Source of the DNA: a virus
Direction: 5' to 3' (one strand)
IMG/VR virus record: IMGVR_UViG_3300042899_000796
Span: 1 to 64,000 of that record
DNA: 64,000 bases
Both the position numbers and the translations under genes were made by a program. The notes under the pieces were generated by a model. The model did no database searches. It was not told the DNA's origin and worked only from the letters and a program-made list of their open reading frames with translations. This document shows, piece by piece, positions 3,312 to 21,035 of this stretch. The stretch's first letter is position 1; each line of letters starts with the position of its first letter.

Positions 3312-3320
3312 CAATTGTAT

Positions 3321-5303
3321 ATGGCATATCAAAACATTAATCAGTATAATTTTAGACGATGGGGTCTAAAACCGGCGAATGAAATCACGGACATTTGTCT
3401 TGCTTCAGACGAAAAAGATTACGACCAAGAGGTTGTTTTTTCACCTTTATTAATTGGTGAATTGGATGGTAATAGAATGCCGTTTAAATTCAATTTCAAT
3501 AGTTCAGGAACAACTTTATGTACTACAAGTGCGTGTACATTTGATTATGACACTATTGTGTCAGAAAATTATTGGAACCCTACTGATACTGACCCAAATT
3601 TTTGCCCTATAATAACTGACTTATGTGATGTTGGTTTAACGGGAATTGACAATGGTTTGGTAAAACATATGTCCGGAGAAACAATTCAAATTAATACCGG
3701 GCTTTATACCACACAATCAGACAAATTTAGTAGATACAAATACGATAGAAGGATGAAAATGCACCCAATCACTGGGTTCACAACATCACAGAATAGATTA
3801 TGGAATGATAATTCATATTCGTATGATTTATCGTACAACAATGCCGGTGGTGATATTGGATATGTTGCGAGATTAGATGGTGGATTCTTCCAAGGATTTT
3901 ACAAGGTTGCTGGTTATGATTACCAAATTTTTCCTGAAAGACCTAATTTAGGTTGGAGTGCCGAATTTATGTTAAGATATAGATGGACCGGTGATACTTC
4001 TGTTGGTTTAAATTCTCGATACCCAAATAATAAAGGAACATTCTTTTATATGGGAGCGAGAGCGGAAAACAAATTCTACCATTACGCCGATGGTTCACCA
4101 AAACAAGATTCAGGTTATACAAGAGTTACTTCAGGTTTAACTTGTATGGATACTTGCGCTTGTAATTTATTAGGTAGTAACCCTCATGATTGTTTAAAAG
4201 TTTATCAACAGTCAGGTGGTACATCATATAATTGTAGTTGTGGTTGTCCATGTTCTTGTGAGGTAAGTGTCCAATATCCTGAAACTGACCCATTATATGA
4301 TGGAGTTTCAAATGCTTTATCTTTAAGATTAAGTGGTGATACAGGAAGTCCAAGATTATGTGTGAAAACATATAGAATAACCGGGGGATGTGAAACAACG
4401 GGAACTTGTTTAACAGGTATAACCTATACAACAGGAACTTCAGTTACTGAATGGTGCTCTACAAGAGGAATCTTTGATGACTGTAGTGGTACAACTTATT
4501 CAAATGTTGAGCATTGGGTTCAAATAGATGCGGTGTTTCAACGAAACGAATGGTTTGATGCTTGTGATTTGAATAATAAAGGAGGTCTTGGATTAATCGT
4601 TAAAGAAATTTATACTGCAACAACTGCAAACAATAGTATTAGTTTAATCGAGCCACCAATTACTCACGAAGAAAAATACGACCCCGCAACAACTGAAATT
4701 GTAACATTCAACGATAATTGGACTGCCGAAGAAAAATATAGATTAGGAACAATGAAATTCTATGTGAATGGTAAATTGTTTATGGTTGCAGAAAACTTTG
4801 AAGAAATTATTCCACGTCTATTAGATACTCCAAAAGAAAAACAAATTGGGGTTGGATATAATATTTCATTAGGTGGAGGAACTCAAGGTCTTCATGATAA
4901 CTTAACTTTTTCGGGTGGATGCCCTCCGACAATTGATGATATCGTTTATCAACAAGACCCTGAATGTTTAACAACACATGATTTAGATAATACAATTTAC
5001 TCAGGTCTTACAACTCATATTAAGTTAGAAGAATATTTTGGGGGGAGTATGATTGGTGATATAAGTGCGTTTAGAATGTACACCGAACCATTAAATGCGT
5101 CTCAAATAAAACATAACTTTAATTTATTAAAGTTAAAATACAATTTATTAGACCCTAATTGTTTGAATTGTAGAATTACAATTCCAAGTAATGATTTATC
5201 TTACATTTTTATTCCGGATAATGATTTATATTATCTTTCTATACCAAGTAATGATTTATACTATGAATCAATAAACCCAACTCCGACCCCAACACCTGTA
5301 TAA
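3321..5303 (+). CDS. Cys-rich virion surface protein with C-terminal LamG-like domain
   Basis: 660 residues from ATG 3321; an in-frame TTG two codons earlier is less likely as the start. The body is beta-rich. Residues about 270-330 are packed with cysteine (CSCGCPCSCEV). The C-terminal half (about 415-620) resembles a concanavalin/LamG-like lectin fold: FYVNGKLFMVAE, then DISAFRMYTEPLNASQI, a typical closing strand of that fold. The end carries three short repeats built on IPSNDLYY and a PTPTPTP tail. These features fit a tail-fibre or head-fibre adhesin that binds sugars. It heads a run of four surface genes; the next gene begins 2 bases after its stop. The exact place on the particle is unknown. 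Confidence 0.6.
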   Translation: MAYQNINQYNFRRWGLKPANEITDICLASDEKDYDQEVVFSPLLIGELDGNRMPFKFNFNSSGTTLCTTSACTFDYDTIVSENYWNPTDTDPNFCPIITDLCDVGLTGIDNGLVKHMSGETIQINTGLYTTQSDKFSRYKYDRRMKMHPITGFTTSQNRLWNDNSYSYDLSYNNAGGDIGYVARLDGGFFQGFYKVAGYDYQIFPERPNLGWSAEFMLRYRWTGDTSVGLNSRYPNNKGTFFYMGARAENKFYHYADGSPKQDSGYTRVTSGLTCMDTCACNLLGSNPHDCLKVYQQSGGTSYNCSCGCPCSCEVSVQYPETDPLYDGVSNALSLRLSGDTGSPRLCVKTYRITGGCETTGTCLTGITYTTGTSVTEWCSTRGIFDDCSGTTYSNVEHWVQIDAVFQRNEWFDACDLNNKGGLGLIVKEIYTATTANNSISLIEPPITHEEKYDPATTEIVTFNDNWTAEEKYRLGTMKFYVNGKLFMVAENFEEIIPRLLDTPKEKQIGVGYNISLGGGTQGLHDNLTFSGGCPPTIDDIVYQQDPECLTTHDLDNTIYSGLTTHIKLEEYFGGSMIGDISAFRMYTEPLNASQIKHNFNLLKLKYNLLDPNCLNCRITIPSNDLSYIFIPDNDLYYLSIPSNDLYYESINPTPTPTPV

Positions 5304-5305
5304 TA

Positions 5306-5869
5306 ATGAGTTGTAATCAATATCAAATAACCAATTATAATAATATTCAAGAAGGATATTATAAATGGACAGGTTGTACAGGAATTATTAGTGTTTCACA
5401 AGTAAATCCATTACAAACTGATTTTGTTTGTGCTGATGATTTAACTCAAGAAGATTATGGTGCTCCATTAACAATAAATAATATTGGATTGTGTCCGTCA
5501 AATACACCGACACCTTCAATCACACCATCGGTAACTCCTACAGTTAGTTTAACACCAACTCCGGTTACTCAGACTCCAACACCAACAAATACTGCAACAC
5601 CATCAAATACACCTCAACCGGTGTATATTCAAAATTTAAGAACGGGAGGTTGGTATCAAAATGTTTGTCAATCAGTAAATTCATTTGCAAACCCCGCCAA
5701 TGTTACGGTATATTCGGTAAAACCTTTTACTCAATTAAATGTGGGTGACCATGTATTTGGTGATAGATTAATGACTATCCCACCGATAAATGCGGATTTC
5801 ACAATATCTGACGGAGCAAGATTTGTACAAATATCCGGAACATTGATTATAAATCAGGGTGTTTGTTAA
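5306..5869 (+). CDS. Small virion surface protein with PT-rich linker
   Basis: 187 residues. An N-terminal globular domain (1-65) starts MSCNQYQITNYN and contains three Cys. A Thr/Pro/Ser linker (about 67-112) has repeats such as TPTPTNTATPSNTPQP. A C-terminal beta domain (113-187) contains GGWYQNVCQSV and ends in GVC. The two-bead plus PT-stalk plan is a short version of the two large genes that follow. The N-terminal bead resembles that of the 7964 gene (M-A/S-C, then Y-x-I/L-T-N). It follows the LamG-like gene by 2 bases and is probably co-transcribed. Role inferred: accessory fibre or decoration protein with a stalk that could be O-glycosylated. Confidence 0.55.
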   Translation: MSCNQYQITNYNNIQEGYYKWTGCTGIISVSQVNPLQTDFVCADDLTQEDYGAPLTINNIGLCPSNTPTPSITPSVTPTVSLTPTPVTQTPTPTNTATPSNTPQPVYIQNLRTGGWYQNVCQSVNSFANPANVTVYSVKPFTQLNVGDHVFGDRLMTIPPINADFTISDGARFVQISGTLIINQGVC

Positions 5870-5896
5870 AAAAAAAATAAAATAAGAAAAATTGAG

Positions 5897-5903
5897 TATT
5901 TAT
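5897..5903 (+). promoter_or_regulatory. Late-promoter-like TATTTAT, 4 bases before ATG
   Basis: AGTATTTAT ends at 5903 and the ATG is at 5908. If this is a -10-like element, transcription would start at or near the start codon, giving a leaderless mRNA. Confidence 0.5.
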
Positions 5904-5907
5904 TGAT

Positions 5908-7896
5908 ATGGCAATTGGAATAAGAATTTTAAGTAATAATTTAAGTGGTTTAACTACAAATGTGACGTTTCTACCTCAATCAGGTGGAACAATTAGTCTT
6001 GGGACTCAGGTGTTCCCATTTAATTATATTTCAGACTATGTGTATGGAACATATAATTGTTATGTGCCAACATACGGATACACTTATAGTTTAGATGTTT
6101 TAGCTCCGACACCTACGCCAACAATGACTAGTACTTCAACACCAACTAATACTCCAACTAATACCCCTACTAATACATCAACTCCAACTAATACGCCAAC
6201 TAATACTACCACTTCAACTCAAACACCAACTAATACTCCAACTAATACTTCAACTCAAACTCCGACTAATACTCAAACTGGTACTCCAACACAAACTCCA
6301 ACACAAACTCAAATTCAAATTTTGGTAACATACCTTATTGCACCTTGTTTGGGTGGTACTGCTTTAAATGTTGATTTTAATAGTGTATCTCTTCCTGTGA
6401 TTGGAGGAAATTATTATTTAACATTCTCAGGAGAAACATCAGATGGATGTTATGAAATTGTTAATACTGAGGCCCCGGGAACTGGTTCTGATTATGTATC
6501 ATCATTATCAATAGATTATGATAATTGTTCGACTTGTTTAAGTGTTGTGACAACACCTACTCCAACACCAACTAATACATCAACTAATACACAGACGCCA
6601 ACTAATACACCTACTAATACATCAACACCTATTGTAAGTTCAACGCCAACAACAACACCAACTAATACACCAACAATAACACCATCCCCGACAGAACCTA
6701 TTAGATATGAATTTGACAATATTTGTCATAGTGAGACTAATGGTGGTGCTTCGTGTAACTGTATACAAGTAGCCACAATATGGGGTAACAACCCGGTGTT
6801 TAGTGCGAGTACTGCGTTTTTCTCTGACCCAAGTGGTCCAAATACAGGAAACCCTGAAGGATGGTATGCGATTGATGGAATAGAATATCAATTAAGTACT
6901 GATTGTGGAATTGGTTGTACAACAGGAGCAACTATTGTTTCGACATCTGCTTGTCCTGTGACTCCAACACCAACACCGACTAATACATCAACTCCAACAC
7001 AAACTCCAACTAATACGCCAACTAATACTCCGACAAATACGGAAACTCCAACTAACACACCAACTAACACAGAAACTCCAACTAACACACCGACAAATAC
7101 GGAAACTCCTACTAACACACCGACAAATACGGAAACTCCTACTAACACACCGACAAATACGGAAACTCCAACTAATACACCAACTAATACAGGAACACCT
7201 GCGGAAACACCAACAAACACACCAACTAATACCGAAACTCCAACTAATACACCAACAAATACACCAACTCAAACTCAAACAGGTACACCAACAAATACTC
7301 CAACAAATACTTCAACTAATACACCAACAAATACACAAACCCCTACTCAAACTTCTACACCTACATCAACATTTGCATGGTATACGTATAGTTTAGGGAC
7401 AGGGGTAACTTCTAATGATGCGTGTATTGCAATACCACAAACAATCTACGGAACAATTGAAGGTGGTGTAGGTCCAAACGTGGGTGAATATTTATACGAA
7501 ACCGAAGGAAGACCTCTTACAGATGCAGTGCCTGATGGATATTATTCTAACGGAACCTCATCGTATCGAGTTACAGGTGGTTTTGGACAAATTACTTCAT
7601 CAGACCCATTAGGTTGTGCTGATTTAATTACCCAAACTCCAACGTCAAGTCCAACACCAACTCAAACACCAACAACGATTATAAACTATTATTACGATAG
7701 TACTCCGGTTTGTGATACAATTAACCCTTTTCAAAATGTTGTATTAGATAATGATTTTTGTACTGCAACAACAATAACATCATCAACAGTATTATCCGAT
7801 GGTACTTATTGGATTACTGATGGTTCTGTTAGAAGAGATATTACTGCGTCGGGAGGTTCATATACTTTTAATGGTGGTTGTGTTGCTTGTGCATAA
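5908..7896 (+). CDS. Mucin-like virion stalk protein with PT repeats and beta-bead domains
   Basis: 662 residues. The N-terminal domain (1-68) begins [14 protein letters not shown] and is probably the particle anchor (inference). Four compact beta beads follow at about 135-210, 270-350, 490-575 and 590-662, separated by Thr/Pro/Asn/Gln stalks at about 68-135, 212-268, 352-488 and 576-588. The longest stalk is built from the 10-residue unit [10 protein letters not shown]. Beads contain paired cysteines. One bead ([20 protein letters not shown]) recurs in the next gene. Nothing catalytic is visible. A long flexible stalk carrying small domains fits a particle-surface fibre for adhesion to glycans or mucus. 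The stalk is a plausible substrate for the downstream glycosyltransferases. It follows its own TATTTAT motif. Confidence 0.6.
6106..6690 (+). repeat. In-frame Thr/Pro/Asn/Gln coding repeats (6106-6318 and 6553-6690)
   Basis: Degenerate 12- to 24-base units built from ACTCCAACTAAT-type codons encode TPTNTPT. They are interrupted by a globular bead at about 6319-6552. The repeats are coding and stay in frame. Confidence 0.8.
6958..7368 (+). repeat. Long PT-repeat tract with an exact 30-base tandem unit
   Basis: About 410 bases encode a continuous Thr/Pro/Asn/Glu stalk. From 7021 to 7200 it is organised in 30-base units, each coding [10 protein letters not shown] or a close variant. Copies 7081-7110 and 7111-7140 are identical, and 7141-7170 differs in one base. 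Such identity among degenerate neighbours points to recent expansion. Frame is preserved by the multiple-of-three unit. Confidence 0.85.
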
Positions 7897-7938
7897 AAAT
7901 AATTTTAAGATAAAAACATAAAATCAATACTATTGTAG

Positions 7939-7945
7939 TATTTAT
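7939..7945 (+). promoter_or_regulatory. Late-promoter-like TATTTAT
   Basis: GTATTTATA lies 18 bases upstream of the ATG at 7964, in the 67-base gap between the two large stalk genes. Confidence 0.5.
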
Positions 7946-7963
7946 ATATTAAACAGAAATAAC

Positions 7964-9904
7964 ATGGCTTGTAGTAAATATACTTTAACAAATACCGGTT
8001 CCACAATAGTGAACTTTAACTATAGAAGATGTGATGATTCTCTATGGCAATATCAGGTTGAATTAATACCAAATCAAACTAAGAATATTTGGTTACTTAA
8101 TAATACTTATTCAATTGCACCTTCATTTAGAAATAGTGTTGTATTGGTAAACCAAGGAGCATTTCCTCCGGTTACGGCTAGTAATACCCCAACTCCAACT
8201 AATACACCAACTTCTACAAATACTCCAACACCAAGTAATACTGCAACAAATACGCCTACACCAACTCAAACTCAAACTCAAACTCAAACACCAACTAATA
8301 CACCTACGCCTACACAAACACAAACACCTACACAAACACAAACTCAGACACAAACTCAAACTCAAACTCAAACTCAGACTCCAACAAATACGGGAACTCC
8401 AACTCAAACCCCAACACAAACTCAGACTCAAACTCCAACCACAACTTTTTTATATTTCATTTATAGTTTAGGTTTTGGAAATAATGCAAGTGATGCTTGT
8501 AATGATTTTGCAGCATCACCTCAAACGGTTTATGGTCAAGTAGTTGATGGACCGGGTCCTAATGTTGGTGAATTCTTATATCAAACACCTGGTAACCCAT
8601 TAACTAACCCTGTTTCTGACGGATATTATTCTAATGGAACTGCTTGGTTTATTGTATCAGGAGGTTTAGGTGAAATTACATCATCAGACCCTAATGGTTG
8701 TATTGGATTACCAACGGCAACACCAACTAATACACCAACTAATACACCAACAAATACAGGAACACCAGCACAAACTCCTACAAATACACCAACAAATACG
8801 GGAACACCAACTGGTACTCCAACTAACACTCCAACAGGAACACCAACTCAAACTCCAACTCCAACAGCTAATCGATTTGCATTCACAGTTTATTCAGGAA
8901 CAACATCTGATGAGGCGTGTGGATTATATTTCCCATCAATAACAATTTATGGTGAAGAACAAACTTTTGATGATAATACAATATTTTATAATACAATTGT
9001 TGGACCAAGTGTTGGGAATTTAACAGGATACTTTAATAATTCTCAAATTGTTGTTCAATTAAATAATGGGTCAGAAACAGGTAGTTTTATTGCTTGTCAA
9101 ACATTAACACCAACTCCGACTCAAACTCAGACTCAAACTCCTACACAAACATCTACTCAAACACCTACTACAACAACCACATTAACGGCAACTCCTACAC
9201 AAACTCCTACACAAACTCAAACACAAACTCAAACACAAACACCAACTCAAACATCTAGTGAAACACCAACACCAACAGGAACACCAACACAAACTCCAAC
9301 ACCAACAGGTAATAGATTTGCATTTAATGTTTATTCAGGGACAACATCTGACGAGGCATGTGGATTATATTTCCCATCAATAACAATATATGGTGAAGAT
9401 TCTTTATTTGATTATAATACTATATTCTACAATACAATTATTGGTCCAAGTACAATAAACTTGACCGGATACTTTAATAATTCTCAAATTGTTGTTCAAT
9501 TAAATAATGGTACACAAACAGGAGGTTTTACTTTATGTCAAACATTAACTCCAACACCGACACAAACATCTACGCAAACTCCTACACCAACAAATACACA
9601 AACTCCTACACAAACATCTACTCAAACACCAACACCTACATCAACCTTCGCTTATTATACATATAGTTTAGGAACAGGATTGACGGAAAATGCTGCATGT
9701 ATTGCAACACCACAAACAATTTATGGTTCGGTATCGGGTGGAACTGGTCCTAACGTGGGAGAGACATTATACTTAACCGCAGGTATACCTCCAACTAACG
9801 AAGCCCCTAATGGATGGTATTCTGATGGAACTAAAACTATTGAAGTGTCTGGTACAAATGGTCCAGGTGTAATTACAACTGTAAACCCAACGGGATGTTC
9901 ATAA
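7964..9904 (+). CDS. Second mucin-like virion stalk protein with repeated beads
   Basis: 646 residues. The N-terminal bead (1-68) starts MACSKYTLTNTGS. Then four beads are threaded on Thr/Pro/Gln stalks: about 163-248 (YSLGFGNNASDACN), 304-381 and 448-525 (two near-identical copies with TTSDEACGLYFPSITIYGE) and 562-646 (YSLGTGLTENAACI). Stalks use TQTQTPT and TPTNTGT units. Each bead keeps a D/N-A/E-A-C pattern and a following P-x-T-V/I-Y-G, so they belong to one small beta family that is shared with the 5908 gene. No enzyme motifs are visible. The likely role is a surface fibre or decoration. It is the last gene before a strong terminator, and the glycosyltransferase cluster begins right after that. 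Confidence 0.6.
   Translation: MACSKYTLTNTGSTIVNFNYRRCDDSLWQYQVELIPNQTKNIWLLNNTYSIAPSFRNSVVLVNQGAFPPVTASNTPTPTNTPTSTNTPTPSNTATNTPTPTQTQTQTQTPTNTPTPTQTQTPTQTQTQTQTQTQTQTQTPTNTGTPTQTPTQTQTQTPTTTFLYFIYSLGFGNNASDACNDFAASPQTVYGQVVDGPGPNVGEFLYQTPGNPLTNPVSDGYYSNGTAWFIVSGGLGEITSSDPNGCIGLPTATPTNTPTNTPTNTGTPAQTPTNTPTNTGTPTGTPTNTPTGTPTQTPTPTANRFAFTVYSGTTSDEACGLYFPSITIYGEEQTFDDNTIFYNTIVGPSVGNLTGYFNNSQIVVQLNNGSETGSFIACQTLTPTPTQTQTQTPTQTSTQTPTTTTTLTATPTQTPTQTQTQTQTQTPTQTSSETPTPTGTPTQTPTPTGNRFAFNVYSGTTSDEACGLYFPSITIYGEDSLFDYNTIFYNTIIGPSTINLTGYFNNSQIVVQLNNGTQTGGFTLCQTLTPTPTQTSTQTPTPTNTQTPTQTSTQTPTPTSTFAYYTYSLGTGLTENAACIATPQTIYGSVSGGTGPNVGETLYLTAGIPPTNEAPNGWYSDGTKTIEVSGTNGPGVITTVNPTGCS
8188..9645 (+). repeat. 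PT-repeat stalks (8188-8445, 8716-8868, 9106-9312, 9547-9645) and a duplicated bead
   Basis: Four coding stalks of degenerate ACTCAAACTCAA- and ACACCAACTAAT-type units encode TQTQTPT and TPTNTPT. Between them, about 8869-9105 and 9300-9546 are two very similar copies of one bead-coding segment. This shows internal duplication of a bead plus stalk. Confidence 0.8.
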
Positions 9905-9928
9905 AAAAAAATAAAATATATTTCATTA

Positions 9929-9957
9929 AACCCTCGACTTATCTCGAGGGTTTTTTA
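9929..9957 (+). terminator. Intrinsic terminator after the stalk genes
   Basis: The stem AACCCTCGA / TCGAGGGTT has a 6-base loop and is followed by a T-run. It separates the virion surface genes from the glycosyltransferase cluster. Confidence 0.85.
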
Positions 9958-9980
9958 TTTTTAAAACAAAAAGTAATACT

Positions 9981-11246
9981 ATGAAAATATTTGTTCAAAT
10001 CGCCTCTTACAGAGACCCACAATTAGAACCAACAATTAAAAATATGTTGGAGAACGCCAAGAAACCTAAAAATATTCATTTTGGAATTGCAAGACAATTT
10101 AGTGAAGACGATGGATTCGATAAATTAGAAGACTATAGAAAAGATAAAAGATTTAAAATCTTGGATATTCCATACGAAGAATCTAAAGGTGTTTGTTGGG
10201 CGAGAAATCTAACTCAACAACTTTATGGTGGTGAGACATATACCCTTCAAATAGATTCACATATGAGATTTGTTAAAGATTGGGACGATATTTTAATCAA
10301 GATGATTAAAGGTCTTCAAAAAGACGGATATGAAAAACCTTTATTAACAGGTTACGTACCATCTTTTGACCCTGAAAATGACCCAGCAGGTAGAGTGAAT
10401 GAAGCATGGAGAATGGTATTCGATAGATTCATCCCTGAAGGTGCGGTATTCTTTTTACCTGAAACAATTCCGGGATGGAGAGAAATGAAAAAACCTGTGA
10501 CTGCAAGATTCTATTCAGCACACTTTTGTTTTACATTGGGCGCCTTCTCGTTAGAAGTCCAACACAACCCTGAATATTATTTTCATGGTGAAGAAATTTC
10601 AATTGCTGCAAGAGCTTATACTTGGGGTTACGATTTGTTCCATCCACAAATTCCTGTGGTATATCACGAATATACTCGTAAAGGTAGAACCAAACAATGG
10701 GATGACGACAAAACGTGGGGAGAGAAAAACAAACATTCTCATTTTACAAATAGAAAACTATTTGGTATGGATGGTGAGAAACAAGAAGGACATGATGGTC
10801 CGTTTGGATTTGGTCCAATTAGAACTTTAACAGACTATGAAAAGTATTCAGGGTTGTTGTTTGAAAAGAGAGCGATTGATAAATATACTTTGGATAAAAA
10901 TTACCCACCAAATCCATATAATTTTGAAACAGAACAAGAATGGAAAGATAGTTTTTGTATGATGTTCAAACATTGTATTGATATTGGTTATGACCAAGTA
11001 CCTGAAAAAGATTATGAGTTTTGGGTTGTTGCATTCCATAATGATAAAGATGAGACTTTATTTAGAAAAGATGCAGATAAAAACGAAATTGCTGGTTTTA
11101 TGAGAGACCCTGACAAATATTGTAAAGTGTGGAGAGAATTCCAAACAGACGAATTACCATCACATTGGGTTGTATGGCCGTTTTCAACATCTAAAGGATG
11201 GTGTGATAGAATAACAGGTAGATTACACCATAATATAGTTAGTTAA
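9981..11246 (+). CDS. GT60-like polypeptide GlcNAc-transferase
   Basis: 421 residues. The start, FVQIASYRDPQLEPTIKN, and QIDSHMRFVKDWD (residues 90-102) match the glycosyltransferase family known as GlcNAc (PF11397, CAZy GT60). The DSH at 92-94 is the DxD-like metal site. Known GT60 members add alpha-GlcNAc to hydroxyproline of Skp1 in Dictyostelium or to Thr of mucin-like surface proteins in trypanosomes, so the acceptor is a polypeptide. Here the gene lies directly after genes for Thr/Pro-repeat virion proteins, which are obvious candidate substrates (inference). It is cytoplasmic, with no signal or membrane segment. It is first in a six-gene cluster and has 23 bases of A-rich leader after the terminator's T-run. 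No prolyl hydroxylase was seen in the window, so Thr is the simpler acceptor. Confidence 0.7.
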   Translation: MKIFVQIASYRDPQLEPTIKNMLENAKKPKNIHFGIARQFSEDDGFDKLEDYRKDKRFKILDIPYEESKGVCWARNLTQQLYGGETYTLQIDSHMRFVKDWDDILIKMIKGLQKDGYEKPLLTGYVPSFDPENDPAGRVNEAWRMVFDRFIPEGAVFFLPETIPGWREMKKPVTARFYSAHFCFTLGAFSLEVQHNPEYYFHGEEISIAARAYTWGYDLFHPQIPVVYHEYTRKGRTKQWDDDKTWGEKNKHSHFTNRKLFGMDGEKQEGHDGPFGFGPIRTLTDYEKYSGLLFEKRAIDKYTLDKNYPPNPYNFETEQEWKDSFCMMFKHCIDIGYDQVPEKDYEFWVVAFHNDKDETLFRKDADKNEIAGFMRDPDKYCKVWREFQTDELPSHWVVWPFSTSKGWCDRITGRLHHNIVS

Positions 11247-11254
11247 TAAAATCA

Positions 11255-12205
11255 ATGAGTAGAAAATTAATAGTTCATCAACCAACAAACCATCAAAGTA
11301 AAAAATATAGGTATTACAATATATTCTTTGATAATTTTATTAAAAAATTGTCGGAAAAACACGATGTCGTGACTGATAGATATTATAGAGATGCTCATCT
11401 CGGACAAAAATTAGTTAGATTGGGGTGGCAACATAATGAAAATGATGTTGATGTATTGACCTACGAATGTGAAATGATTATTGAAGATTATGACACAGGT
11501 GAAACATATGTGTTTGGAGTTGCTGATGATTTAACCTCGGCAACTTTAAACTTACAATCGTATGATAATGTAAAAAAAGTTTTTATCTCTCAATTTATTA
11601 GAGAAAAAGTGTATCATCATGTTTCACCCCAAAATCAATACAAATACTTCCCATGGATATATTTTCCGTCAAATGAATATGATTTAGATTACTATTACAA
11701 TCTAAGAAAAAATATGGTTATATCTAATGACAAATTTTATTTTAGAGGTGATACGTCAACAAGACCTATTCTTAATTATTTTAGTCCTGATGTTTTTTAT
11801 GGTGGAGGTCCAATTGGTGGGTTTGATAATTATGCTAACGAAATGTTGAATTTTGAGATTGCGTTTTCTGTTGCAGGTAGAGGTGAAATTTGTTATAGAG
11901 ATATAGAATGTATGGCGATGGGTATTCCATTCATTAGATTTGAGTTTACAAGTGAATTTCACGAACCATTGATTCCAAATTATCATTATATATCAGTTGA
12001 AAGGCCGGATGACTTAAAAGATTGGATGAACTTAGATAGAAATGGATTACAACATCATGCGGATATGATAACAAAAAGATTTTTAGAAGTAAAAGACGAT
12101 AAAGAATTTTTAAATTTTATTTCAGAAAATGCTAGAAAGTATTATGAAAAATATTTGTCTCCGGAAAGTAGTATAGAATACACACTGAACTTATTAGAAT
12201 TATAA
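11255..12205 (+). CDS. Putative GT-B glycosyltransferase (CAP10/exostosin-like C-terminus)
   Basis: 316 residues. The clearest signal is in the C-terminal half, GRGEICYRDIECMAMGIPFI (about residues 209-228), followed by LIPNYHYISVERPDDLKDW. This is the donor-binding layout of exostosin/CAP10-type and other GT-B enzymes: a conserved Glu after R-x-x-E and then hYh-V. The N-terminal region is a Rossmann-like start (RKLIVHQPTNHQS). It lies 8 bases after the GT60-like gene and 1 base before the next gene, so it is certainly in the same operon. The predicted role is transfer of a further sugar to the glycan started by a neighbour; the donor is unknown. Confidence 0.5.
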   Translation: MSRKLIVHQPTNHQSKKYRYYNIFFDNFIKKLSEKHDVVTDRYYRDAHLGQKLVRLGWQHNENDVDVLTYECEMIIEDYDTGETYVFGVADDLTSATLNLQSYDNVKKVFISQFIREKVYHHVSPQNQYKYFPWIYFPSNEYDLDYYYNLRKNMVISNDKFYFRGDTSTRPILNYFSPDVFYGGGPIGGFDNYANEMLNFEIAFSVAGRGEICYRDIECMAMGIPFIRFEFTSEFHEPLIPNYHYISVERPDDLKDWMNLDRNGLQHHADMITKRFLEVKDDKEFLNFISENARKYYEKYLSPESSIEYTLNLLEL

Positions 12206-12206
12206 A

Positions 12207-13145
12207 ATGGTTATTAACATACAAATAAATTTTACTTCAGGTATTGGAGATTTTTACACTTATTTTTGTGAAATATATTTTTCATCTAAACAACTTAAAG
12301 AATTAGGTCATGATGTTCATTTGTACTTTAATTCCAAAAGGAAAATAGATTTTTTAAATTTATTTGAACCTAAATATTATGAATATTTTGACCAAATATT
12401 TTTAATTGAAAATGGGAAAACTTTAAATGATTTTGAAAATTATAAAATAAAATACCCACATGAGAAATGGCCTGCGGGGGTACATTGTTGGGAAATGTTT
12501 GTTCCTGAAGAATTCAATGATGAACATAAACAATATTTTGTTAATTTATCTCATCCTGGGTTATTAAATTATGAAGACTTAAATGATTTCCCAAAATTAT
12601 CTGAAAAGATTATTAAAAACACAGAAAAATTTAAAATAGATAATGGTTTAAATAATTTTAGTATTATTCATTTTAGAGAGTGGGATGACATTGGAGATGC
12701 CTATAATGTAAGAATATTACATCCTGAAATACAAGATGAAGAGTTTCAAGTAAGACACAAAAAATTAAAATCAGCATTTTCTATAAATGAAAATACAATG
12801 AACAAAATAAAAGATATTTGTGATAATAATGAAATGGTTTTTGTTTGTTCAAATAGTATGAGAGTTAAACAATATATAAAAGAACATTTTAATAATATTT
12901 TTTTATATGATGATGATATTTTAAAGACAACAAGAAGAGATTATAGTGATGAAGAATATTGGAACTTTTGTTTAATTGAATTTTGTTTAATTTCAATGTC
13001 AGAAAAAATTAACATATTTACAAATTATAATTGGATTAGTAATTTTATTGTTTATGGCGCACTAAACAATAAATTTGGGGTTGTAAACCCGTATAAAAAC
13101 AATTCGTTTGTACAAAATTACGGGTCTTTTATGGATTTAGAATAA
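12207..13145 (+). CDS. Putative fucosyltransferase-like GT (GT11/GT23 fold)
   Basis: 312 residues. The C-terminal half has IIHFREWDD (about 152-160), comparable to the H-x-R-x-G-D motif of alpha-1,2/1,6-fucosyltransferases. Then comes MVFVCSNSMRVKQYI (similar to the V/I-F-x-S-D segment) and a closing ISMSEKINIFTNYNWISNF, comparable to the S-x-F-S-W-W region. The spacing and order fit the GDP-fucose-binding lobe, although the canonical Gly-Asp is replaced by Trp-Asp. It is strongly Lys/Asn-rich and AT-rich like its neighbours. Its stop overlaps the next start by 1 base. Assignment is by motif order only, and another GT-B family remains possible. Confidence 0.45.
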   Translation: MVINIQINFTSGIGDFYTYFCEIYFSSKQLKELGHDVHLYFNSKRKIDFLNLFEPKYYEYFDQIFLIENGKTLNDFENYKIKYPHEKWPAGVHCWEMFVPEEFNDEHKQYFVNLSHPGLLNYEDLNDFPKLSEKIIKNTEKFKIDNGLNNFSIIHFREWDDIGDAYNVRILHPEIQDEEFQVRHKKLKSAFSINENTMNKIKDICDNNEMVFVCSNSMRVKQYIKEHFNNIFLYDDDILKTTRRDYSDEEYWNFCLIEFCLISMSEKINIFTNYNWISNFIVYGALNNKFGVVNPYKNNSFVQNYGSFMDLE

Positions 13146-13783
13146 TGAAAAAAATAATATCATTTTCTTTATATGGTGGGCAACAAAAATATTCTTATGG
13201 AATGATAAGTAATGTTGAGATTGCTCAAGTTATTTTTCCGGATTGGATATGTAGAATTTATTATGGTAAATCAGTTCCATCGGAGGTTGTTGAACAATTA
13301 AGAACTTATAGTAATGTTGAATTATACTTAATGGATGAAGGTGAAGAACATATCTTCCCGATGATGTGGAGATTTTTGGCAATTGACGATGAGGATGTTG
13401 AAGTAATGATATCAAGAGATGCAGATGCCAGATTATCATATAGGGAAAAACATTGTGTTGACATTTTTATGGAATCTGAATTCTTATTACATTCAATTAG
13501 GGATAATCCTAGTCATAATAATATTATGGGTGGAATGTGGGGAATTAAAAAAAATAATAGAGTTAAAATGAATGAATTAAGTAAAGATTGGAAAGGTCAT
13601 TACTATGATTCGGACCAAAAATTTTTAAGAGAAAAATTAGTACCTTTATTTAATGACAGATATTTGATTCACTGTTCAACATATTTGAAAACCTTTCCAA
13701 TTGAAAAAACCAATGAATATTTTGTTGGTGGATGGTGGGACGAAAATAATTTCGGAAAACCTCAAAATTATATATTTTTTTAA
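13145..13783 (+). CDS. Putative GT-A glycosyltransferase with DxD motif
   Basis: 212 residues. It opens with ISFSLYGGQQKYSYG, then a Rossmann-like half containing WICRIYYGKSVP. MISRDADARLSYRE (88-101) carries the DxD metal-binding motif at D92-A-D94, and IMGGMWG follows at about 126-132 as the acceptor-side loop. This is the pattern of small cytoplasmic GT-A enzymes found in capsule and phage glycan clusters. It is in the middle of the cluster, overlapping the upstream gene by 1 base, with a 9-base gap to the next gene. Sugar and acceptor are unknown. Confidence 0.55.
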   Translation: MKKIISFSLYGGQQKYSYGMISNVEIAQVIFPDWICRIYYGKSVPSEVVEQLRTYSNVELYLMDEGEEHIFPMMWRFLAIDDEDVEVMISRDADARLSYREKHCVDIFMESEFLLHSIRDNPSHNNIMGGMWGIKKNNRVKMNELSKDWKGHYYDSDQKFLREKLVPLFNDRYLIHCSTYLKTFPIEKTNEYFVGGWWDENNFGKPQNYIFF

Positions 13784-13792
13784 AACATTAAA

Positions 13793-14656
13793 ATGGAAAA
13801 CAAAACATTATTTATAACTTGTTTTTATAACGGGTTAGACAACACAATTTTAGGTGGTCGTGTTGGTAGAATTCATCATTATGTGAATTCGTTGAGAACA
13901 CTACTAAATTTAGAATCTGATTTTGTGATTTACACATCTCAAGAAGATAAAGAATATCTTGAAAAACATATTGATTTTACCGAATATAAATCAAACGTTA
14001 GGTTTATTGTTTATGATTTATTTTCACATCCAAACCATGAATATTTTCAAAAAATGTTGAATGGAAATAAAAGTGATAGATGTCATGAAATAATGCATAG
14101 TAAAACCTCATGGATTAAAAATCATATATCGGAAGATTATGATTTTTATTATTGGATTGATTGTGGATTATCACATGGAGGTTTATTTCCGAGAAAATAT
14201 CGAAATGGTGATAATTTCCACGACTTTTTCTCATGTACATTATTTAATCCTACAATGGTTGAAAACTTGAATAAGGTTGAAGATAAAGTTACAATATTAT
14301 ATGGAGACCAATCAAAACACTTATTAGAAAGAAGAGCAAATGGGAAATTTTATCATAACATAGATGTTGTTGAAAATTGTCATATTGTCGGAGGTATGTT
14401 CGGTGGTAAAAAAGAACTTGTTAATGAGTTTTGTTTAATGTATGATGACGTTTTAAAAGAAATGATTGATTATGATGCATTAGACATGGAAGAGGCTTTA
14501 TATACAATAATCTATCAAAGAAATAAAAATAATTTTAATAAATTAATATTCACTACTTGGCACCATGAAAATAGTGATATGGCACAATATAACTTTGATA
14601 ATGAAATATATTTTTATAAAATTTTTGAAAAATTAAATAACATAATTGATGAATAA
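13793..14656 (+). CDS. HtrL/YibB/WlaTC-like glycosyltransferase
   Basis: 287 residues. TLFITCFYNG at the start and FYYWIDCGLSHGG (about 117-129), then HIVGGMFGGKKELV (about 199-212), match the HtrL_YibB family (PF09612). This family holds WlaTC-type enzymes of Campylobacter surface glycans and looks like a GT-A fold with a W-I-D/W-x-D site. Many members act on lipo-oligosaccharide or other surface sugars. In this cluster it probably extends the same virion glycan. The next gene has a homologous N-terminal domain, so the pair arose by duplication. Its stop overlaps the next start by 8 bases. Confidence 0.55.
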   Translation: MENKTLFITCFYNGLDNTILGGRVGRIHHYVNSLRTLLNLESDFVIYTSQEDKEYLEKHIDFTEYKSNVRFIVYDLFSHPNHEYFQKMLNGNKSDRCHEIMHSKTSWIKNHISEDYDFYYWIDCGLSHGGLFPRKYRNGDNFHDFFSCTLFNPTMVENLNKVEDKVTILYGDQSKHLLERRANGKFYHNIDVVENCHIVGGMFGGKKELVNEFCLMYDDVLKEMIDYDALDMEEALYTIIYQRNKNNFNKLIFTTWHHENSDMAQYNFDNEIYFYKIFEKLNNIIDE

Positions 14657-16322
14657 TATAACGTTAGTAACAGGAATATGGGATATTGGTAGAGAGAATT
14701 TAACCGAAGGATGGTCAAGGTCGTACCAACATTATTTAGATAAATTTGAACAACTTTTAGATGTTCAGGAAAATATGATAATCTTTGGGGATAACGAACT
14801 TAAAGAATTTGTTTTTAGAAAAAGAAATGAATCAAATACTCAGTTTATTGAAAGACCTTTAAAATGGTTTACCGATTCTGAATTTTTTCCATTAATTCAA
14901 AATATTAGAACAAACCCTGATTGGTATAATCAAGTTGGGTGGTTAAAAGATTCTACTCAGTCTAGATTAGAAAATTATAACCCATTGGTAATGTCAAAAG
15001 TTTTTCTTTTACACGATGCAAAAATATTTGATAAATTTGATTCAGAATATATGTTTTGGATTGATGGAGGTTTAACCAATACAGTTCATCCGGGTTATTT
15101 TACTCATGATAAAGTTCTTGATAAACTTTCTAAGTATATTTCAAAATTTTCATTTATAAGTTTTCCTTATGGGGCTGAAAGTGAAATACATGGTTTTGAG
15201 TATAATAAATTAAATTCAATTGCTGGTGATAAGGTTACAAGAGTTTCTCGAGGAGGATTTTTTGGAGGACCTAAAAGTACTATAACAGATATTAACGGAA
15301 TTTATTATGGTTTATTAAAATCTACTCTTAATGAAGGTTATATGGGTACTGAAGAATCAATCTTTAGTATAATGTCTTACAAACATTCTGATTTAATTAA
15401 CTATTTTGAAATTGAGTCCAGTGGGTTGGTTGGAAAGTTTTTTGAAGATTTAAAAGATGATAACTTAATACCAAAAAATGAATCTAAAGTTAGTGTTGAA
15501 AATAATTTAGACACAAATAAAGTTGGACTTTATGTTTTAACTTTTAATAGTCCAAATCAATTTAAAACTTTAATTAAATCATTTGAAGTTTATGATAATG
15601 ATTATTTGTTAAAGACTAAGAAATATTTGTTGGATAATTCAACAGATTTATCAACAACAGAGGAATACTTGAAATTATGTGAAGAACACGGATTTGAACA
15701 CATAAAAAAAGAAAATCTTGGAATTTGTGGTGGTAGACAATGGATTGCCGAACATTTTGAAACGACAGATTTAGATTATTATTTATTTTTTGAAGACGAT
15801 ATGTTTTTCTTCCCTAATGAAGGTTCTGTTTGTCGAAATGGGTTTAATAGATATGTACCAAATTTGTACACCAAATCATTAGAAATAATTAAAAAAGAAA
15901 ATTTTGATTTTTTAAAACTTAATTATTCTGAATTTTATGGAGATAATGGAACCCAATGGTCTTGGTATAACGTACCTCAATCAGTTAGAGAAGAGTTTTG
16001 GCCTGAAAAATCATCATTACCTCATCTTGGGTTAGACCCTAACGCACCAAAAACTAAATTTTCATCAATTTTATCTCACAAAGGTTTACCATATGGTTCC
16101 GGTGAAGTTTATTATTGTAACTGGCCTCAAATTGTTAGTAGACCAGGAAATAAAAAAATGTTTTTGGACACAACATGGGCACATCCATTTGAACAAACAT
16201 GGATGAGTCATATGTATCAATTAACTAAAAAGGGTGAATTGTCATCGGGTTTATTACTTTTATCCCCAACTGAACACGATAGATTCGAACATTACGAAGG
16301 AGAGTTACGTAAAGAGTCATAA
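14649..16322 (+). CDS. Two-domain glycosyltransferase: HtrL-like plus GT2-like
   Basis: 557 residues from ATG 14649; the TTG one codon earlier is less likely. Domain 1 (about 1-280) is HtrL/WlaTC-like: ITLVTGIWDIGRENL, YMFWIDGGLTNTVHP and VSRGGFFGGPKS mirror the previous gene. Domain 2 (about 295-557) starts VGLYVLTFNSPNQFKTLI, a GT-A/GT2-type first strand, and has LFFEDDMFFF near residue 382. That EDD/DxD site is typical of beta-glycosyltransferases. The fusion suggests two successive transfer steps coupled in one protein. It is the last gene of the cluster; the next gene has its own TATTTAT motif. Confidence 0.6.
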   Translation: MNNITLVTGIWDIGRENLTEGWSRSYQHYLDKFEQLLDVQENMIIFGDNELKEFVFRKRNESNTQFIERPLKWFTDSEFFPLIQNIRTNPDWYNQVGWLKDSTQSRLENYNPLVMSKVFLLHDAKIFDKFDSEYMFWIDGGLTNTVHPGYFTHDKVLDKLSKYISKFSFISFPYGAESEIHGFEYNKLNSIAGDKVTRVSRGGFFGGPKSTITDINGIYYGLLKSTLNEGYMGTEESIFSIMSYKHSDLINYFEIESSGLVGKFFEDLKDDNLIPKNESKVSVENNLDTNKVGLYVLTFNSPNQFKTLIKSFEVYDNDYLLKTKKYLLDNSTDLSTTEEYLKLCEEHGFEHIKKENLGICGGRQWIAEHFETTDLDYYLFFEDDMFFFPNEGSVCRNGFNRYVPNLYTKSLEIIKKENFDFLKLNYSEFYGDNGTQWSWYNVPQSVREEFWPEKSSLPHLGLDPNAPKTKFSSILSHKGLPYGSGEVYYCNWPQIVSRPGNKKMFLDTTWAHPFEQTWMSHMYQLTKKGELSSGLLLLSPTEHDRFEHYEGELRKES

Positions 16323-16338: not shown

Positions 16339-16716
16339 ATGGAATTTTACATCAAACAAAACGCAACATTACCTGTATTAAAAATGCAAGTTGTTAAGGA
16401 CGGTAGAGCCGGATATCAACAACTTATGCAAGATTTAGAGGTATCTACAATATTTTTTACAATGATTGACGTGGAGACGGGTATTCCTAAAATAGTATCC
16501 GCTCCCGCCGAAATTGTTAATTTAATCTTACCTGACGGTGCCGACCCTGAATATTATATCTATTTTAAATTTACCTCCCGAGATACTAACACTCCTGGTA
16601 GATATGAGGGTCAATTCTTAATTAAGAATGACGAAGGTAATTTAATTCTTCCAATTAGAGAAGAACTTTATATTAATGTCCAACCAAGTTTTATTTCAGA
16701 AACTGCTTGTTGTTAA
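16339..16716 (+). CDS. Putative virion protein with BppU-like beta domain
   Basis: 125 residues from the ATG at 16339, chosen because the TATTTAT motif sits just upstream. The sequence alternates beta strands: FYIKQNATLPVLKMQVV, ISTIFFTMID-type strands, then YYIYFKFTSRDTNTPGRYEG and ILPIREELYINV. This resembles the N-terminal beta domain of upper-baseplate (BppU-type) and similar phage receptor-binding accessory proteins: a polymer-like statement of constraint, then a D-T-x-x-P-G-x-Y-x-G turn. It ends in two cysteines. It is monocistronic in appearance. The structural role is inferred from the fold pattern and the promoter class. Confidence 0.45.
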   Translation: MEFYIKQNATLPVLKMQVVKDGRAGYQQLMQDLEVSTIFFTMIDVETGIPKIVSAPAEIVNLILPDGADPEYYIYFKFTSRDTNTPGRYEGQFLIKNDEGNLILPIREELYINVQPSFISETACC

Positions 16717-19907: not shown

Positions 19908-21035
19908 TTATATTACGTAAATTTGTCGAGGCATCGCTCTAAATTTCATTTGTTTGTTTAAGTTTTCTGCAATTAACGCCTCTCGTTCCATTACTTTTTC
20001 TGGTCTTAATCTTGTTAACCATCCTTCAGCTCCTGTTAATTCTTCAATTAATTTAGTTTTTTCATCTTTTGATTCAGTTAATAAGGATGTATAGTCCATA
20101 GTTAATTCACTATCAGGTGTTTTAAGATTACCACTATATTTTCCTCTAACTCTTGCCAACGTTTCTTTACAATATGCTGTGAACCATCTTCTAACCCATT
20201 GTTGACCCGGTATGTTTAAATCTTCCCAAGATAAATTATCCATTGGAACATCCGAAGGTAATTTAATAACGTCAGGATTATTTTTTAAACAATCAGCTCT
20301 ATTATCAGGGGATACATCATAATACCAATACCACACCGCTTTACCCACATAACCGTTAATATTATTCCAATTAAATCTTCCTCCCGGTGTATTGTATAGA
20401 TGAATATTTTTCTTACCATCAGGTAATCCGGTAATTCTATAGGTAAGTGAACCTCCTAAAATTCTACTTAAAACATTTGCTTCTTGCATTCTCACAAGAT
20501 AATCAAACCCTGACATCATAAAGTAAGAACCTTGATTCCCCATTTGAGCGAATCCCGCCTCATTAGCTCCAAGACCTATACCTGCACCAAATCCACCAGC
20601 AGCGGCACCTAATCCAAATGCATTCCATGGTCTATCACTAAACCATAATAATTCATTAACCTCACGACCTGCAGGGATTTCGTATGTTTGAGTATTTGCA
20701 CTTAAGATGAAATAATCTTTTTTCAAAACCCATGGACCTTCTGTTTGAAGACCTACAATTTTTGAATATGAATAACTAAATTGTTGTTCAAAATCCATTG
20801 TTCGAGTAATCAACGCTTTTGCAACTGATTTCTCATTCATGTTTAGGTTAACTAAATTAACCCATTGACTATCTATTAACCATTGAAGAACATATTCTTC
20901 ATAGTCACCTATAGATAATTCCATTAACGAGTCCATCATTTCATCTTCAAGTTCCACACTTCTAAGTGGTGCACCTAATTGATGTTTGACTCTCGTATAA
21001 ATTTTACTTCTTTCTGGTTCCGGTATAACTGCCAT
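19908..21035 (-). CDS. Putative neck/head-tail connector protein
   Basis: 375 residues. The start IYTRVKHQLGAPLRSVELED followed by a helix ending DYEEYVLQWL resembles the opening of T4-like neck proteins (gp13/gp14 group), where an L-G-x-P-x-x-x-V-E-L phrase is followed by a helical dimer region. A Gly/Ala-rich flexible insertion lies at about 140-170 (GLGAAAGGFGAGIGLGANE). The C-terminal part has WFTAYCKETLARVRGKYSG. The start is only 4 bases after a TATTTAT motif. I infer a connector or completion role; portal or tail proteins would look different, but confidence in the exact gp number is low. Confidence 0.45.
   Translation of the reverse strand: MAVIPEPERSKIYTRVKHQLGAPLRSVELEDEMMDSLMELSIGDYEEYVLQWLIDSQWVNLVNLNMNEKSVAKALITRTMDFEQQFSYSYSKIVGLQTEGPWVLKKDYFILSANTQTYEIPAGREVNELLWFSDRPWNAFGLGAAAGGFGAGIGLGANEAGFAQMGNQGSYFMMSGFDYLVRMQEANVLSRILGGSLTYRITGLPDGKKNIHLYNTPGGRFNWNNINGYVGKAVWYWYYDVSPDNRADCLKNNPDVIKLPSDVPMDNLSWEDLNIPGQQWVRRWFTAYCKETLARVRGKYSGNLKTPDSELTMDYTSLLTESKDEKTKLIEELTGAEGWLTRLRPEKVMEREALIAENLNKQMKFRAMPRQIYVI

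Follow-up and report, generated by a model that had tools for sequence, protein, structure and literature searches.

The stretch of DNA analysed here (the window) comprises positions 1 to 64,000 of the 67,291-base virus record IMGVR_UViG_3300042899_000796 and belongs to a contractile-tailed phage, as indicated by a tail sheath domain at 27964-31185. At positions 5306 to 16322 of the window, three genes with long Thr/Pro repeats are followed by a cassette of six genes, the first of which codes for a homologue of GT60-type polypeptide glycosyltransferases. A preliminary description had suggested that this locus is a self-contained system that makes glycosylated stalks on the phage particle; phage virions are usually regarded as bare protein. 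The features of the locus are as follows (PT, Pro-Thr; bookend, conserved end gene of the cassette).

5306 to 5869, + strand: PT-repeat protein 1, 187 amino acids (aa), with an N-terminal domain, a PT tract at residues 64-109 and a C-terminal module
5908 to 7896, + strand: PT-repeat protein 2, 662 aa, small modules linked through four PT tracts
7964 to 9904, + strand: PT-repeat protein 3, 646 aa, modules linked through four PT tracts
9928 to 9953, + strand: hairpin resembling an intrinsic terminator, separating the repeat genes from the cassette
9981 to 11246, + strand: constant bookend 1, homologue of GT60-type polypeptide GlcNAc-transferases, 421 aa, proposed initiator
11255 to 12205, + strand: exchangeable middle gene 1, 316 aa, possibly of GT-B type, unmatched by any family
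12207 to 13145, + strand: exchangeable middle gene 2, 312 aa, possibly fucosyltransferase-like
13145 to 13783, + strand: exchangeable middle gene 3, 212 aa, possibly of GT-A type
13793 to 14656, + strand: exchangeable middle gene 4, 287 aa, homologous to the HtrL_YibB domain found in the last gene
14649 (ATG) or 14646 (TTG) to 16322, + strand: constant bookend 2, tandem GT-A enzyme, 557 aa

Repeat proteins and enzymes of the locus

The Thr/Pro repeats attributed earlier to the genes at 5306, 5908 and 7964 were borne out: the best 40 residues of their products contain 15, 19 and 18 TP/PT dipeptides, compared with maxima of 7, 13 and 11 in 1000 shuffles of each protein's own composition, and all other open reading frames (ORFs) of the window score at most 6 (162 six-frame ORFs of at least 60 aa). 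The tracts of proteins 1, 2 and 3 hold 14, 139 and 130 Thr residues, respectively, encoded by mixed codons (ACA, ACT, ACG and ACC), so that simple repetition of DNA does not account for them. A module of about 87 aa, copies of which recur in proteins 2 and 3, was modelled confidently at residues 160-246 of protein 3 (window 8441-8701; pLDDT 91). It had no match among PDB structures (best E 2.5) and its better matches in BFVD were uncharacterised phage proteins (best E 3.2e-3, TM 0.75), so that the fold gives no function. To judge from the neck-type adaptor and tail sheath genes that share the window, the repeat proteins may be virion-type. The terminator described after them was also found, in a scan yielding 4 hairpins where 1.9 were expected in the scanned region; a promoter scan gave 53 matches vs 47.2 expected and was thus of no help.

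The six cassette ORFs are tightly packed, no gap or overlap exceeding 11 bases, much as in the preliminary description, and the GT60-like nature of the first gene was borne out. Its product matches PF11397 (E 1e-64, 219.7 bits vs a cut-off of 21) and phrog_24687 (E 6.6e-164), and the DSH motif (DxH, the metal-binding motif of GT27 and GT60) is kept in 48 of 48 aligned relatives. These 48, which were also used for a tree, come from 53 loci, five atypical short or fused relatives (L258, L259, L260, L283 and L327; L-numbers denote loci or contigs fetched for comparison) having been excluded beforehand; all five are without the fused enzyme and without PT ORFs. Sequence searches with the first enzyme against solved structures, both single and profile, gave no useful match. 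Known GT60 members, which attach GlcNAc to Thr or hydroxyproline of polypeptides, include those of the Dictyostelium Skp1 Gnt1 type and of the Trypanosoma cruzi Thr type. The window enzyme resembles the CAZy GT60/PF11397 enzymes in its profile score, far over the cut-off, and in the conserved DxH; it differs in being phage-coded, and its acceptor is putative. By family precedent, it would transfer GlcNAc to Thr. The phage and bacterial members, which made up the comparison, have about 130 further residues with conserved positions past the Pfam match.

A prolyl hydroxylase (PF13640-type 2-oxoglutarate oxygenase) is absent from the 67-kb record of the window and was found in 4 of 22 GT60 genomes or records, the records being fragmentary. 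The phage GT60s thus differ from the Skp1-type system in having no general prolyl hydroxylase partner, and a hydroxyproline route was not adopted.

The description of the last gene as a fusion likewise stands. Its N-terminus is HtrL_YibB-like (PF09612: E 4.5e-17, 63 bits vs a gathering cut-off of 24.1), its C-terminus is of GT-A type with an EDDM motif, and its AlphaFold model (pLDDT 92) contains two GT-A-like domains in a single chain. The N-terminal domain is over the Pfam cut-off for the HtrL/YibB family; the protein differs from that family in lying far under the YibB NCBIfam equivalog cut-off (72.9 vs 264.9 bits) and in its second, fused GT-A domain. The top Foldseek matches were multi-domain transferases (LH3, chondroitin polymerase, LARGE1 and COLGALT1; best E 3.1e-11 over 618 columns, root-mean-square deviation (rmsd) 19.6), which share the arrangement of two GT-A domains per chain. 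By VIA, the C-terminal half resembled B4GALNT1, POMGnT1 and GnT-I (Z 15 to 16.1, rmsd 3.1 to 3.7, 188-204 residues aligned), B4GALNT1 being the best (Z 16.1, rmsd 3.3, 202 aligned), and the N-terminal half resembled Bogt6a and blood-group-type enzymes (Z 13.2 to 13.5; for Bogt6a, Z 13.5, rmsd 3.2, 191 aligned). The predicted tandem GT-A fold is a likeness of fold only and says nothing on function.

The last gene also weakly matches a PHROG family of T4-type DNA glucosyltransferases (E 9.4e-4), as would be expected if the glycosyltransferases of the cassette acted on modified bases of phage DNA; the GT-A fold alone can explain this match. DNA is named as a possible glycosyltransferase target by the moraphage authors in passages of PMC12619734, and YerA41, another jumbo-like phage, is reported to carry a large thymidine modification. 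A dCMP hydroxymethylase, as in T4-type DNA glucosylation, was sought, and only enzymes resembling thymidylate synthase were found, so this candidate was rejected. Such homologues occur in 10 of 19 GT60 records and were not found in the other nine, which are possibly fragments; the Asn of true thymidylate synthases is kept in 8 of the 10 by pattern and seemingly in a ninth by eye, these counts covering nine of the 10. The retained Asn gives no sign of a dCMP hydroxymethylase; hydroxymethyl-U is conceivable. The bacterial chromosomal copies described below also adjoin repeat proteins. We regard DNA as a highly improbable target.

All six genes had been called glycosyltransferase-type. This holds for the GT60 gene, the last gene and the gene at 13793-14656, whose product is homologous to the last-gene N-terminal domain (hhalign 99.1%), and was not matched by any family assignment for the other three. 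Middle genes 1-3 may be transferases, to judge from their position and from sequence motifs; the fucosyltransferase-like label of 12207-13145 comes from a motif typical of such enzymes, and profile search gave no match. The product of 13145-13783, as a single query against the sequences of solved structures, has a weak match to the viral protein Crov588 (phmmer E 0.0046). Profiles of middle genes 1 and 4 found no useful match among the sequences of solved structures. No membrane-type hydrophobic stretch was found in the repeat and cassette proteins of the window, the highest Kyte-Doolittle 19-residue mean in the six cassette ORFs being 1.27; these six therefore include no flippase, polymerase or membrane initiator.

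Conserved bookends and an exchanged middle

When every window gene was compared with the fetched loci by tblastn, the GT60 gene and the last gene were seen to travel together and the four genes between them were not. Among the 53 GT60 loci (non-redundant at 90%), the last gene was matched in 42, including two with another arrangement (L237 and L274) and one weak match (L242, 23% over 47%). The 11 loci without it are the five atypical relatives, four divergent ones (L245, L251, L254 and L276, 35-41% identical), and L241 and L281, whose sequence stops about 3 kb past GT60. Loci fetched with the DNA polymerase gene (80 in all) contained the last gene in 61 of 61 cases with at least 2.6 kb upstream. 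With at least 9 kb upstream (n = 34), 32 had GT60 and 27 of these also a PT ORF; in five GT60 lay near the locus edge with no PT ORF within reach, and L387 and L388 had neither in reach, the contig of L388 carrying a GT60 further off. Fetching with the last gene itself gave GT60 in 43 and a PT ORF in 40 of the 47 loci with at least 5.9 kb upstream. The bookend pair is conserved as far as the phages of the XacN1 type.

Between the bookends, 36 layouts were observed in 110 loci, built from 47 single-linkage protein groups; the set is limited to loci whose two bookends share a strand and enclose one or more ORFs, and near-copies are included, so that loci and not events are counted. DNA homology of the window to L007, L015, L009 and L012 ends at 11246-11250, at the stop codon of the GT60 gene, and returns at 14611-14629, just 5' of the last gene, the identity from there on being 94.7% in L007 (7.9 kb) and 91.4% in L015 (2.8 kb). 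Since the end genes are conserved at the DNA level, recombination within them could swap the whole middle and keep the attachment chemistry. The G+C content is 25.7% at 12001-14000 and 26.8% at 14001-16000 (mostly last gene), compared with about 33% in the surroundings; a dip in G+C as a mark of the middle genes was rejected, the last-gene region being low as well.

Where the middle genes of relatives could be named by Pfam, they were mostly glycan enzymes: fucosyltransferases of the GT10 and GT11 families, GT25, galactosyltransferase-type domains (GT7-C type), FkbM and other methyltransferases, carbamoyltransferases, pyruvyltransferases, a DegT aminotransferase with a GNAT acetyltransferase, an epimerase, a class II aldolase, WcbI and a nucleotidyltransferase. 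Many others had no Pfam match. The exchange of the middle, together with these families, leads us to read it as an exchangeable glycan cassette, and, as only the first and last genes are conserved, the six genes do not make up a single fixed pathway. Capsule and O-antigen loci are alike in having conserved flanks around exchangeable glycan genes; they differ in that the six window ORFs include no membrane-type genes and in that the acceptor proposed here is a polypeptide. Two relatives are of interest in their own right. On one contig (L055 11309 to L388 7655) about 17.8 kb containing 20 ORFs of 100 aa or more separate the bookends, and this cassette has its own enzymes of sugar-nucleotide type. 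In the cassette region of L275, an ORF at 11411-13063 has weak, below-cut-off matches to MTES_1575/Vsr-type nucleases; it may represent a mobile element or assist the exchange.

The families found in the middle include some typical of lipopolysaccharide (LPS) or polysaccharide loci, such as GT25 and pyruvyltransferase, as would be expected if the cassette altered the host surface (LPS, capsule or glycoprotein) and thereby blocked superinfection, the PT proteins being unrelated neighbours. For variable glycosyltransferase clusters of cyanophages, passages of a review (PMC7824862) propose such a role on the grounds of their polymorphism. Against this explanation are the lack of membrane-type segments in the six genes (the scan covered window genes), the conserved first enzyme, which belongs to a polypeptide glycosyltransferase family, and the link to PT tracts seen both in bacteria and in distant phages, as presented below. 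We therefore consider an action on the host surface to be quite unlikely.

Co-occurrence of GT60 and Thr/Pro repeats in phages and bacteria

A search of viral contigs with the GT60 protein gave 379 related stretches, of which 80 were kept. A PT ORF is present in 78 of these 80 loci, and the two misses have only 78 and 159 bases upstream; the 80 are one lineage of at least 84% identity, in which L005 matches the window with 99.96% identity across 21 kb. A distant set of 23 loci, 17 found with the XacN1 enzyme and 6 on bacterial-genome contigs, had a PT ORF in 10 cases, vs none in 32 random loci, which are shorter. In whole records, DNA coding for TPTPTP, counted irrespective of frame, was present in 15 of 19 records with a distant GT60 vs 1 of 31 random records (the 19 are the 17 finds, XacN1 and RAS14, chosen by distant GT60 only), and a reversed control pattern in 2 of 50; Fisher's p for the association is 2.5e-8 under an assumption of independent records, which these are not. 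The reverse check gave a GT60 in 26 of 119 distinct records among the matches listed in a PT-pattern scan, three of the 26 being weak or atypical, vs 0 of 32 random ones. The check put forward in the preliminary description, whether GT60-like genes go together with PT repeats, thus largely came out in favour of the link, in both directions and relative to random records, with PT repeats also present where GT60 is not.

For the 53 non-redundant loci, 22 (from L237-L260) had been selected by the PT pattern and were not counted for co-occurrence. In the tree of 48 GT60s, a sample chosen in part for PT, the label 'PT within 1.3 kb' must change 8 times, and well-supported branches account for at least 6 of these changes. 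After masking of the tracts, the PT ORFs near GT60 form about 25 groups which BLAST does not join, some of which may be remote relatives.

In bacteria, GT60 is directly followed by the fused enzyme in two contigs of metagenome-assembled genomes (MAGs), L278 (Saprospiraceae) and L282 (Gemmatimonadota). From their translations, we take other genes to be UvrB, NAD kinase and an OmpA-like protein in L278, and catalase-peroxidase and tryptophanyl-tRNA synthetase in L282; both contigs look like true pieces of chromosome. The divergent neighbour in L278 codes for a protein that combines SPSNSISPTPTTSV-type repeats with a type IX sorting tail (PF18962), and the upstream neighbour in L282 for a PqqD-domain protein with a PT-rich C-terminal tail. 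The order is the same in two more Gemmatimonadota genomes (L325 and L326), with shorter Ser/Ala/Pro/Thr-rich tails. A Thr/Pro/Ser-rich stretch is the only element common to the bacterial neighbours, whose carrier domains are unrelated. In the tree, the Saprospiraceae GT60 copies nest among phage sequences in a clade with branch support, and transfer of the pair between phages and bacteria is therefore probable. Strong GT60 matches are rare in these bacterial groups (2 of 396 and 3 of 395 genomes, query genomes included); in the order of G165 matches were mostly weak or partial (best E above 1e-6 in 14 of 16 genomes), and only strong ones were used there. The atypical L283 has neither a PT ORF nor the fused enzyme.

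The Gemmatimonadota order in full is a P-loop kinase-like gene, a PqqD-type protein with an Arg-Arg motif (PqqD assigned by profile in L282 and L326), GT60 and the fused tandem GT-A enzyme (L282 5836-10459, + strand; L325 7082-11580, - strand; L326 8015-12362, + strand); it looks like a conserved bacterial glycopeptide or glycoprotein operon. A sulfotransferase gene adjoins the repeat protein and GT60 pair of the Saprospiraceae contig (L278 6349-8424, - strand), so its glycan may be sulfated. A bacterial GT60 without the C-terminal extension lies in a peptide-export-like cluster (L327 9170-14217, - strand) with a C39-peptidase ABC exporter and a radical SAM protein, the product possibly being a glycosylated exported peptide.

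Isolated phages allow a further comparison. GT60 homologues 43-45% identical occur in Xanthomonas phage XacN1 (ORF334) and in Stenotrophomonas phages RAS14 and CM1, and homologues of the fused enzyme (41-42%) in XacN1 (ORF330) and RAS14. PT tracts are found in XacN1 ORF350 and ORF325, the latter beside a baseplate wedge gene. XacN1 and RAS14 thus resemble the window in their GT60 homologue, fused enzyme and PT tracts in large proteins; they differ in having a carbamoyltransferase and other ORFs in the middle and in PT genes that are not adjacent. Passages of PMC5852040 report at least two glycoproteins of XacN1 from proteomic analysis, suggest ORF328 and ORF334 as the enzymes, and state that the proteome data were deposited under accession PXD008065. 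Two very large proteins with PT/PS tracts, XacN1 ORF325 (L203 30186-40127, about 3300 aa) and one of RAS14 (L204 30669-40085, about 3100 aa), are candidate glycoproteins of these isolates.

Another possible explanation is that virion proteins are indeed glycosylated and the main target lies elsewhere than in the PT tracts, for example at capsid or tail-tube termini, the tracts serving as flexible linkers and the linkage being inherited synteny. Mycobacteriophages offer a precedent: their virion glycosylation by phage-coded transferases was reportedly described by Freeman et al. in 2023. Passages of PMC12619734 cite glycans on mycobacteriophage virion proteins at capsid or tail-tube termini. 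The window system is alike in its phage-coded transferases and in that glycans on virion proteins are at issue, predicted here from genes; it differs in that PT tracts, served by exchangeable cassettes, are proposed in place of capsid and tail-tube C-termini. Such a target would also be in keeping with the PT proteins found without GT60, with the derivation of the 80 GT60-fetched loci from a single lineage, and with the separate PT genes of the XacN1 type. It fits less well with PT tracts accompanying GT60s that had been picked without regard to PT and are 38-49% identical (L276 and XacN1-type records), with the roughly 25 unjoined groups of PT ORFs, and with the Thr/Pro/Ser-rich stretch as the sole shared element in bacteria, and is in our view unlikely. 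Taken together, the co-occurrence of GT60 and PT repeats in both directions, the bacterial pairs and the XacN1 glycoproteins, as reported in the passages cited, support the idea that the tracts are substrates of the neighbouring enzymes.

The proposed glycosylation system and its surroundings

The locus probably codes for a phage O-glycosylation system for Thr/Pro-repeat stalks with interchangeable glycan cassettes. In the host cytoplasm, where tail parts are made, the GT60-type enzyme would put the first sugar on tract Thr residues, this sugar being GlcNAc from UDP-GlcNAc by family precedent. The absence of membrane segments and of a general prolyl hydroxylase argues for direct use of a nucleotide sugar on Thr. 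The exchangeable transferases and sugar-modifying enzymes would then both extend and decorate the glycan and set its outer part, as the families in relatives suggest. The fused tandem GT-A enzyme, nearly always present with GT60, would carry out a further constant step, either a core extension or an end step; it probably performs a core step needed by every cassette. The decorated stalks would finally be incorporated into the particle, where the coat may serve attachment, protection, stiffness or evasion of recognition. The stalk-glycosylation system of the preliminary description is thus supported by co-occurrence, with the correction that its middle is exchangeable.

Several findings weigh against this reading. 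As the phage lineages are not independent, fewer events took place than the counts and the Fisher p suggest. Four of the 19 records with a distant GT60 are without the TPTPTP pattern; within the stretch read, 34 of the 53 non-redundant GT60 loci contain a PT ORF and 19 do not, and among the 31 not selected by PT pattern it is present in 18. Conversely, GT60 occurs in 22 and is missing from 30 of the 52 PT records of at least 50 kb among the matches listed, the records being fragments, so PT repeats are common without it. The closest PT ORFs found in phages of the XacN1 type are some 5 to 12 kb distant from GT60, and the XacN1 glycoproteins, unnamed in the relevant passages of PMC5852040, may not be PT proteins. 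The neighbouring protein of the three Gemmatimonadota has a tail rich in Ser, Ala, Pro and Thr, which is PT-rich in just one of them, and the Pseudomonadota MAG contig L281 has neither a PT ORF nor the fused enzyme. Neither middle genes 1-3 of the window (11255-12205, 12207-13145 and 13145-13783) nor their homologues matched a family over cut-off. The weakest points are the PT repeats without GT60, the uncertain roles of three of the six genes and a glycosylation that is predicted from genes.

The strongest new points are the constant bookends with their exchangeable middle and the bacterial counterpart with unrelated carriers. We are evenly divided over a broader reading, in which a mobile module for O-glycosylation of Thr/Pro(/Ser) repeats, made up of a GT60 initiator and a tandem GT-A enzyme, would be common to large phages and bacterial chromosomes, recombination in the bookends exchanging cassettes of 0.8 to about 18 kb in a serotype-like manner and making the virion sugar coat a rapidly switching trait. 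Such switching would parallel the variation of O-antigens in bacteria, with a protein stalk as the carrier. If the proposal is correct, large phages of a broad group produce glycoprotein stalks by themselves, with a glycan changeable by cassette exchange, and attachment, particle stability and recognition would be affected; there would also be a soluble Thr/Pro-repeat glycosylation system with a recognisable acceptor in phages and bacteria (Saprospiraceae, Gemmatimonadota). Combined queries on phage GT60 glycosyltransferases and phage protein glycosylation returned no papers in the open-licence library searched; such papers may exist elsewhere. In the chloroviruses, of which PBCV-1 is one, the virus is eukaryotic, the target is a capsid protein and the enzymes are different. 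Their likeness to the window is virus-coded glycosylation of a structural protein, capsid glycosylation in PBCV-1 and chloroviruses being cited in passages of PMC5852040.

The neighbouring genes are as follows.

3315 to 5303, + strand: upstream virion-type gene, 662 aa, with a short C-terminal PTPTPTPV
16339 to 16716, + strand: small conserved gene 3' of the cassette, start inferred
16814 to 19540: DNA polymerase
19908 to 21035: neck-type adaptor

The product of the upstream gene had no match in Pfam and PHROG searches, and its homologue in L003 continues into long PT tracts. The homologue of the small gene in L241 carries a fused PT-repeat tail. The first 20 kb of the window had no near-identical named phage in a near-identity search; relatives are up to 321 kb long. 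The window also codes for a UvsX-like recombinase, a DnaB-like helicase and a ribonucleotide reductase. Between the neck and helicase genes, a 510-aa ORF on the - strand (21059-22591) contains a complete Fe/Mn superoxide dismutase domain at residues 37-226 (PF02777, E 4.8e-39); the roughly 280 residues to which it is fused have no assignment.

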